Shown here one piece after another: positions 24,355 to 26,134 of a stretch of DNA of 42,586 bases. The translations under genes and the position numbers were made by a program. Origin of the DNA: an uncultured Pelagibacteraceae bacterium (GTDB taxonomy: Bacteria > Pseudomonadota > Alphaproteobacteria > Pelagibacterales > Pelagibacteraceae). The DNA is taken from NCBI GenBank assembly GCA_902569725.1, contig CACFVG010000008.1:1-42586 (forward strand), written 5' to 3'. A model generated the notes under the pieces. That model had not been told where the DNA came from, ran no database searches, and was given only the letters and a program-made list of their open reading frames with translations. Position 1 is the stretch's first letter. Each line of letters begins with the position of its first letter.

Positions 24355-24383
24355 TTGTTAAATTACAAATTAATTTGTAAATA
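24355..24383 (+). promoter_or_regulatory. Putative rpsB promoter with embedded 18-base palindrome
   Basis: TTGTTA (24355-24360) and TAAATA (24378-24383) are separated by exactly 17 bases and would start transcription near 24390. Between and overlapping them lies a perfect 18-base palindrome at 24363-24380, TTACAAATTAATTTGTAA. The palindrome has no following T-run, so it is not a normal terminator for dnaE, and its position suits an operator. No known regulator is recognised from the motif. The promoter call rests on spacing and on its place ahead of a long structured leader. Confidence 0.45.
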
Positions 24384-24389
24384 CCTGCA

Positions 24390-24474
24390 TAAATTAATAC
24401 GCACACAATTTTTGGTTTAATAACCCTCCGGTCCTTAATTGGAAATAATTGTGGTGGCATAACCGGGAAATATT
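24390..24474 (+). promoter_or_regulatory. Structured rpsB mRNA leader (ribosomal protein S2 leader)
   Basis: This 85-base leader is more GC-rich than its surroundings. CACAATT (24404-24410) can pair with AATTGTG (24447-24453). Inside that loop GGTT (24414-24417) pairs with AACC (24422-24425), and CCGGT (24428-24432) can pair with ACCGG (24462-24466), which lies outside the first helix and 8 bases before the ATG. This makes an H-type pseudoknot next to the ribosome-binding region. From literature memory, a cis-regulatory leader ahead of S2 has been described for Candidatus Pelagibacter ubique, so the class is probably known; autoregulation by S2 is the usual model. The helices are by eye. Confidence 0.65.
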
Positions 24475-25272
24475 ATGAAAATACCAAACGTTACAATCCA
24501 ACAACTACTAGAAGCTGGCGTACATTTAGGTCATAAAACTTTAAGATGGAATCCAAAAATGAAAAAATATATTTTTGGGAAAAGAGATTCCATACATATT
24601 ATCGATTTAACTCAAACTTTAGAGTTAATAAATGTAGCGCTTGAAAAAGTTTATAAAGTTATTTCAGAGAATGGAAAAATTCTTTTTATTTCAACAAAAA
24701 AACAAGCGTCGGAAGCAATTGCTGAATTAGCTAAAGTAACAGATCAATACTATGTTAATCATCGTTGGTTAGGGGGTATGCTAACTAACTGGGGAACAAT
24801 TTCAAACTCAATAAAAAAACTAGAAAAGTTAAACATTGACTTAGTATCTGAGAATAGAGGCTTTACTAAAAAAGAATTGTTAAAAATGAGTGTTCAGAGA
24901 GATAAACTTCAAAAGTCCCTGGGTGGAATAGCTAATATGAAAAAAATCCCTGACTTAGTATTTGTAATAGATACAAATTATGAATCGTTAGCAATTAAAG
25001 AATCAATTAAATTATCAATTCCAATTGTTGCGATTCTAGATACAAATTCAAATCCTGAAGGTATAAGTTTTCCAATACCAGGAAATGATGATGCAAGAAG
25101 ATCGATAGATCTTTACTGCAACTTAATTAAAGAAACTATAGAGAGTGCAAAAAAAGAAATACCAATTGCCGAAGAAAAAACCATTGTTGATAATGAAAAA
25201 GTAACTAAAAAAAACAAAACTGAAATTGAAAAAAAGGTAATAAATAAAAAGACCAAAAAACCTTTAAATTAA
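24475..25272 (+). CDS. rpsB: 30S ribosomal protein S2
   Basis: S2 is a late-assembling small-subunit protein needed for S1 binding. The N-terminal block [20 protein letters not shown] (about residues 12-31), the central [11 protein letters not shown] (about residues 97-107) and the PDLVFVID and AILDTN stretches are family hallmarks. It has 265 residues, of which the last 40 or so form a Lys/Glu-rich tail beyond the conserved core, as in many alphaproteobacteria. It heads rpsB-tsf-frr behind a structured leader. The ATG at 24475 is set by the conserved [15 protein letters not shown] start. Confidence 0.98.
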
Positions 25273-25282
25273 TCAAATAACG

Positions 25283-26134
25283 ATGAGTGATTTAGAAAAA
25301 ATTAAACAGTTGAGAAAGTCTACTGGCGCTGGATTTAAAGATTGCAACACCGCTATTCAAGAATCAGAAGGAGATCTTGTTAAAGCTGCAGAAATTTTAA
25401 GAGTTAAAGGAATATCTAAAGCAACCAAGAAAATGTCAAGAGATGCTAAAGAAGGAGTAGTAGCATTAAATGGTGATAGTAATAAAACTTCAATTTTAGA
25501 AGTAAATTGTGAAACAGATTTTGTTGCAAAAAATGAAGATTTTATTAATTTTGTAAAAGAATTAAGTGAAATTAACAATTCAGTTAGCTCAGATATAGAC
25601 AAATTAAAAAAATCTATTATGAAGAATAAAAAATCTGTTGAAGAAAATCTAGTCACAATGATTGCAAAAATTGGTGAAAAAATAACTTTAGGTAGAGCAA
25701 AAACTTTAAATCATGAAAATTCTAAAAATTATTTTTATTTACACACAATAGTTAAAGATAATTTGTCTAAAATTGCAGTTATAGCATCAATAAATAGTAA
25801 AGAAACATCTGAAAAAATTGATTTATTTGGAAAACAATTAAGCATGCATATTGCTGCTTCCAATCCAATATCAATCAATTCCGATGAAATTAATAAAGAA
25901 ATTTTAGATAAAGAGCATGAACTTATTACGGAGGAATTAAAAAACTCAGGAAAACCAGAAGATATAGCAAAAAAAATTAGTTCTGGTAAAATGAATAAAT
26001 TTAAAGAAGATAATAGTTTAATGACTCAGCAATGGGTTATGGAACCAAAAAAAAAAGTTAAAAATATTATTGCGGAACTAGGATTCAAAGATTTAAAGAT
26101 AATTGACTTCTGCAGAATAAAGATCGGTGACTAA
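25283..26134 (+). CDS. tsf: Translation elongation factor Ts
   Basis: EF-Ts recycles EF-Tu by exchanging GDP for GTP. The N-terminal UBA-like domain has [20 protein letters not shown] (about residues 10-29), and the core motif [13 protein letters not shown] (about residues 74-86) contains the TDFVA contact that inserts into EF-Tu. At 283 residues it is a normal length. It follows rpsB after ten bases. Its stop overlaps the frr start by one base, and pyrH, often found at this point, is absent. Confidence 0.97.

Follow-up and report, generated by a model that had tools for sequence, protein, structure and literature searches.

The gap between dnaE and rpsB in the window, a stretch of 42,586 nucleotides of DNA from an uncultured Pelagibacteraceae bacterium, raises the question of whether the leader of rpsB folds into a pseudoknot reaching the ribosome-binding region and whether such a fold might serve the control of rpsB by its own product, ribosomal protein uS2. 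A sequence-only reading of this DNA had proposed both on the basis of two helices. These are present exactly where it had placed them, with seven exact pairs in CACAATT/AATTGTG and five in CCGGT/ACCGG, among the following features:

24355-24383, + strand: promoter-like element in the dnaE-rpsB gap (TTGTTA 24355-24360, 17 nt, TAAATA 24378-24383)
24400-24402, + strand: lower 5' strand of stem P1, CGC, pairing with GTG 24454-24456 according to the Rfam alignment; C-G/A-U and G-U/U-A exchanges in SAR11
24403, + strand: single bulged A in P1, from the sequence and the Rfam alignment
24404-24410, + strand: upper 5' strand of P1, CACAATT; 5 of 7 pairs changed on both sides among 95 SAR11 leaders
24414-24425, + strand: P2 hairpin, GGTT 24414-24417 with AACC 24422-24425
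24428-24432, + strand: 5' strand of the pseudoknot, CCGGT, in J2-3; constant across SAR11, with compensatory changes elsewhere in the class
24433-24442, + strand: P3, CC 24433-24434 with GG 24441-24442, two pairs, matching the published P3 of 'Ca. P. ubique'
24447-24456, + strand: 3' strand of P1, AATTGTG (24447-24453) and GTG (24454-24456)
24462-24466, + strand: 3' strand of the pseudoknot, ACCGG; constant across SAR11, with compensatory changes elsewhere in the class
24465-24468, + strand: Shine-Dalgarno (SD)-like GGGA, its first two G inside the pseudoknot
24475-25272, + strand: rpsB (ribosomal protein uS2), an open reading frame of 265 amino acids whose N-terminus aligns with other RpsB proteins
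25283-26134, + strand: tsf (elongation factor Ts), an open reading frame 10 nt behind rpsB, presumed to be co-regulated

P1 is longer than noted earlier, with three more pairs (CGC/GTG) below the bulged A at 24403, and a sixth pseudoknot pair is possible, a U27-G67 wobble (24427/24467). The single sequence proves little, since the nested folding energy of the leader is ordinary relative to shuffles (z 0.19) and 273 of 20,000 dinucleotide shuffles (1.4%) hold a comparable 7-bp stem together with a G+C-rich 5-bp pseudoknot. Because the folding energy is unremarkable, the evidence for the fold is comparative, not thermodynamic.

For the comparison, leaders were chosen via the position of the RpsB protein, independently of any RNA score. 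Of 147 genomes of the SAR11 order, 123 contained a single full-length RpsB relative, and the nested structure and the pseudoknot sequence stand upstream of every detected rpsB (123/123). A covariance model made from alignment A1, termed R1, matched once, and no more than once, in each of 123 of the 147 SAR11 genomes, as many as have an rpsB that was detected, and the matches run up to the start of rpsB; since many of these leaders also built the model, the result speaks more to uniqueness and placement than to sensitivity. Among the 95 distinct leaders in A1, 7 of the 10 pairs of P1 have changes on both sides, and the covariation score of the whole structure is 0.256, whereas shuffles give 0.129 and slid controls do not exceed 0.094. 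The smaller stems are less constant. Other SAR11 groups have GGU/ACC, AGGGC/GCCCU, GGC/GCC, or AUAGC/GCUGU in place of the P2 seen here, and P3 is weak, its two pairs being kept in 70/95 and 56/95 rows; counts for both stems are lower bounds, as A1 is a plain sequence alignment that misplaces P2 and P3 across families. On comparative grounds, the conservation of the element settles that the fold is real.

CCGGU/ACCGG is invariant throughout the SAR11 leaders, and because its letters never vary there, leaders from SAR11 by themselves speak neither for nor against the pseudoknot. Its support from covariation therefore comes from outside the order. Among 147 non-SAR11 alphaproteobacterial leaders, the pseudoknot underwent 6 compensatory double changes versus a shuffled mean of 0.27 and a maximum of 3 in 2000 shuffles, examples being CCAGU/ACUGG, UCGGU/ACCGA, and CUGGU/ACCAG. 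In this test, the 5' strand was chosen for resembling the consensus and not for being complementary, and at least the leaders L096 and L118 were mispicked (by eye, they read CUGGU/ACCAG and CCAGU/ACUGG), which renders the test conservative. In the SAR11 alignment A1, rows L157 and L160 were counted as unpaired at the pseudoknot, which reflects a one-column shift of these two rows. Hence, both proposed helices show compensatory change, P1 within SAR11 and CCGGT/ACCGG once sampling is widened to Alphaproteobacteria.

The sequence-only reading had pointed to the Rfam models of S2 leaders, and a cmscan of the region matched RF01815 ('rpsB') at 24400-24466 over the whole model, although at 33.0 bits (E 3.3e-5) this match falls short of the 40-bit gathering score, which is a cut-off for searches and no structural trait. 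At gathering thresholds, the window yielded two tRNAs alone and no other match. In SAR11 this cut-off is non-discriminating, because the motif was itself described from SAR11 and yet 0 of 147 SAR11 genomes reach 40 bits; the default Rfam setting overlooked it in every SAR11 genome searched. The motif was reported by Meyer et al. (2009; PMC2704228) from the dnaE-rpsB gap of 'Ca. Pelagibacter ubique', where stem P1 accompanies a P2 of three pairs and a P3 of two, and J2-3 forms a pseudoknot with a 3' extension of P1. The window leader resembles it in its dnaE-rpsB placement, P1, short P2, two-pair P3, and J2-3/P1-extension pseudoknot, and the gene order dnaE-rpsB-tsf is the same. It likewise displays the traits of RF01815: it lies in the 5' leader of rpsB and ends 8 nt before the AUG, P1 is long (10 pairs, 95.8% of cells paired), P2 and P3, variable and possibly absent in the family, have four pairs and just CC/GG, and a pseudoknot of about five pairs connects J2-3 with the 3' extension of P1. 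The relatives of the window RpsB, with 74-87% identity, belong to uncultured Pelagibacteraceae and 'Ca. P. ubique' HTCC9565. Thus, the window leader is an ortholog of the 2009 'Ca. P. ubique' rpsB motif, a real structure but an already known RNA.

As the structure has been published, the value of the present analysis lies in its geometry. What is new is one point: throughout the SAR11 order, the knot is placed on the ribosome landing site itself and not upstream of it. In all 97 SAR11 leaders compared, the distance from the end of the pseudoknot strand to the AUG is 4-10 nt (median 8-9), and this strand holds the sole Shine-Dalgarno-like bases (97/97), with GGGA, GGA, or GGAG beginning inside the pseudoknot. 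In the window, ACCGG ends 8 nt before the ATG at 24475, and the duplex with the anti-SD amounts to -4.3 kcal/mol including GGGA and to -0.3 kcal/mol without the pseudoknot strand. SAR11 thus departs from RF01815 both in scoring below the gathering threshold and in this overlap, whereas most of the Alphaproteobacteria have a separate SD behind the pseudoknot strand: across 145 alphaproteobacterial leaders from outside SAR11, pseudoknot and AUG are a median of 17 nt apart, and in 125/145 the spacer contains an SD at least as strong as -4 kcal/mol, versus 2/97 in SAR11. The earlier proposal that the pseudoknot reaches the ribosome-binding region is borne out, in that the strand covers the SD-like bases at a conserved spacing. 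Pseudoknot covariation beyond SAR11, a sub-threshold covariance-model match, and conserved spacing, on which that proposal had staked itself, were all found. The section on the rpsB motif in PMC2704228 does not mention the spacing between pseudoknot and AUG, and we did not find the SAR11 geometry, with the pseudoknot strand on the SD 4-10 nt from the AUG, described.

This arrangement raises the possibility that in SAR11 the pseudoknot strand and the SD have become fused, so that the same G residues would pair either with J2-3, in the S2-bound state, or with 16S rRNA during initiation. We advance this idea tentatively, as one that could well be right but on which we would not yet insist. The SD match in the window leader is weak, and several window genes are without any SD. 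For these reasons, SAR11 initiation may depend little on the SD, and covering the 30S footprint could be more important than SD pairing. The 3' end of SAR11 16S rRNA carries ACCUCCUUU, retaining the anti-SD core, and the pattern GGATCACCTCCTT was not found in four SAR11 genomes. In the three genomes with readable ends (L350, L351, and L352), 16S rRNA ends with GGATTACCTCCTTT, not the usual GGATCACCTCCTTT, and from this reading the anti-SD core is present. Outside SAR11, about six other alphaproteobacterial leaders (L093, L095, L194, L216, L221, and L311) have ACCGGAG, and their pseudoknot strand lies 9-10 nt away from the AUG. The SD and the pseudoknot seem to have been merged independently in a few members of the class besides SAR11.

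In E. coli, uS2 represses translation of rpsB-tsf through the 5' UTR, helped by bS1, and the details of blocking are unclear, as the ribosome-binding site lies outside the operator (PMC10931766). The E. coli S2 operator, represented by t44 (RF00127), shares its core sequence with the SAR11 element (CACAC ... GUGGNGGCNUAAC), and its pseudoknot can be written as GGGGU/ACCCC, at places equivalent to CCGGU/ACCGG in SAR11. However, 24 nt separate the end of the ACCCC strand from the AUG, the SD lies downstream of that strand, and the ribosome-binding site is not part of the operator according to that review (PMC10931766), whereas the SAR11 pseudoknot overlaps the SD-like bases. If the fusion of SD and pseudoknot holds, repression by S2 in SAR11 would amount to direct steric occlusion, unlike at the E. 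coli operator with its free ribosome-binding site. The window leader does not qualify as t44, as its 19.9 bits fall short of the gathering score, 44 bits. The rpsB leader of E. coli (L346), for its part, matches RF00127 and not RF01815; Rfam seemingly splits one homologous element into RF00127 and RF01815, which have no common clan.

From the homology of structure and place, we infer that the same S2 control would operate in SAR11. Once the sites on ribosomal RNA are occupied, unbound uS2, possibly together with bS1, would bind and stabilize the closed fold, which would directly hide the ribosome landing site because the pseudoknot strand carries the sole SD-like bases, 8 nt before the AUG. 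Translation of rpsB would then drop and, by coupling, that of tsf as well, which the gap of only 10 nt between the two genes makes likely. We consider it likely, with some confidence, that an S2-stabilized pseudoknot hides the landing site and lowers rpsB and tsf translation in this way. A pseudoknot on the ribosome-binding site would represent a simple, testable mechanism in one of the ocean's most abundant cell types. Close gene spacing suggests that the predicted control might possibly extend to frr, uppS, cdsA, dxr, and bamA, as the sequence-only reading had suggested for the envelope genes behind rpsB-tsf.

Other explanations of the leader deserve consideration. Chance complementarity in an A+T-rich leader would agree with a folding energy no better than that of shuffles and with the comparable layouts among them, but conservation and compensatory changes have already refuted it, and we regard its probability as negligible. 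The sequence-only reading had also envisaged a two-state switch, in which GGUU pairs either with the AACC of P2 or with AACC 24461-24464 to give open and closed states. The fold with the alternative helix is just 1 kcal/mol above the nested minimum (-13.2 versus -14.2), and GGUU is found in 50/52 leaders of the genus. Nevertheless, the pairing probability of the alternative helix is about 0.04 in the nested ensemble, and the pairing is not conserved beyond the genus: GGUU occurs in 2/17 leaders from other genera of the family and in 0/28 of the sister family, while AACCGG stays. Since P2 by itself accounts for GGUU, we drop this part of the earlier proposal as a conserved feature; such a switch is highly improbable, though conceivable within the genus.

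A more serious rival holds that the fold is real and ancestral, but that SAR11 employs it constitutively for initiation, for example to present the start region or to recruit S1/30S, with S2 feedback weakened or lost. The leader has been retained in strongly reduced SAR11 genomes and yet its SD-pseudoknot spacing has been altered, and the frozen pseudoknot sequence would also fit a role as a ribosome-binding site. On the other hand, the many compensatory changes in P1 keep the fold, in the layout of the S2-autoregulated leader of E. coli, and we therefore consider a purely constitutive role unlikely, though less so than the switch, and favor repression through an S2-stabilized pseudoknot.

Upstream of P1, a motif of the form CTTG-N17..21-GTA is present in 43/52 leaders of the genus, versus a mean of 0.08 in shuffles. 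A consensus scan for promoters and terminators reported none, and the promoter-like element is visible by comparing relatives alone. Judging from this element, the leader probably has its own transcription start a few bases before P1. A perfect 18-bp palindrome, TTACAAATTAATTTGTAA, at 24363-24380 overlaps the element; its right half (TTTGTAAATA) recurs in relatives, and its left half does not.

Downstream, the gene for bacterial UMP kinase (pyrH), normally an essential enzyme, is missing between tsf and frr (window position 26134). The TIGR02075 cut-off was reached in 0 of 60 genomes of the window's family, single-contig ones included. In the sister SAR11 family, pyrH lies exactly between tsf and frr.
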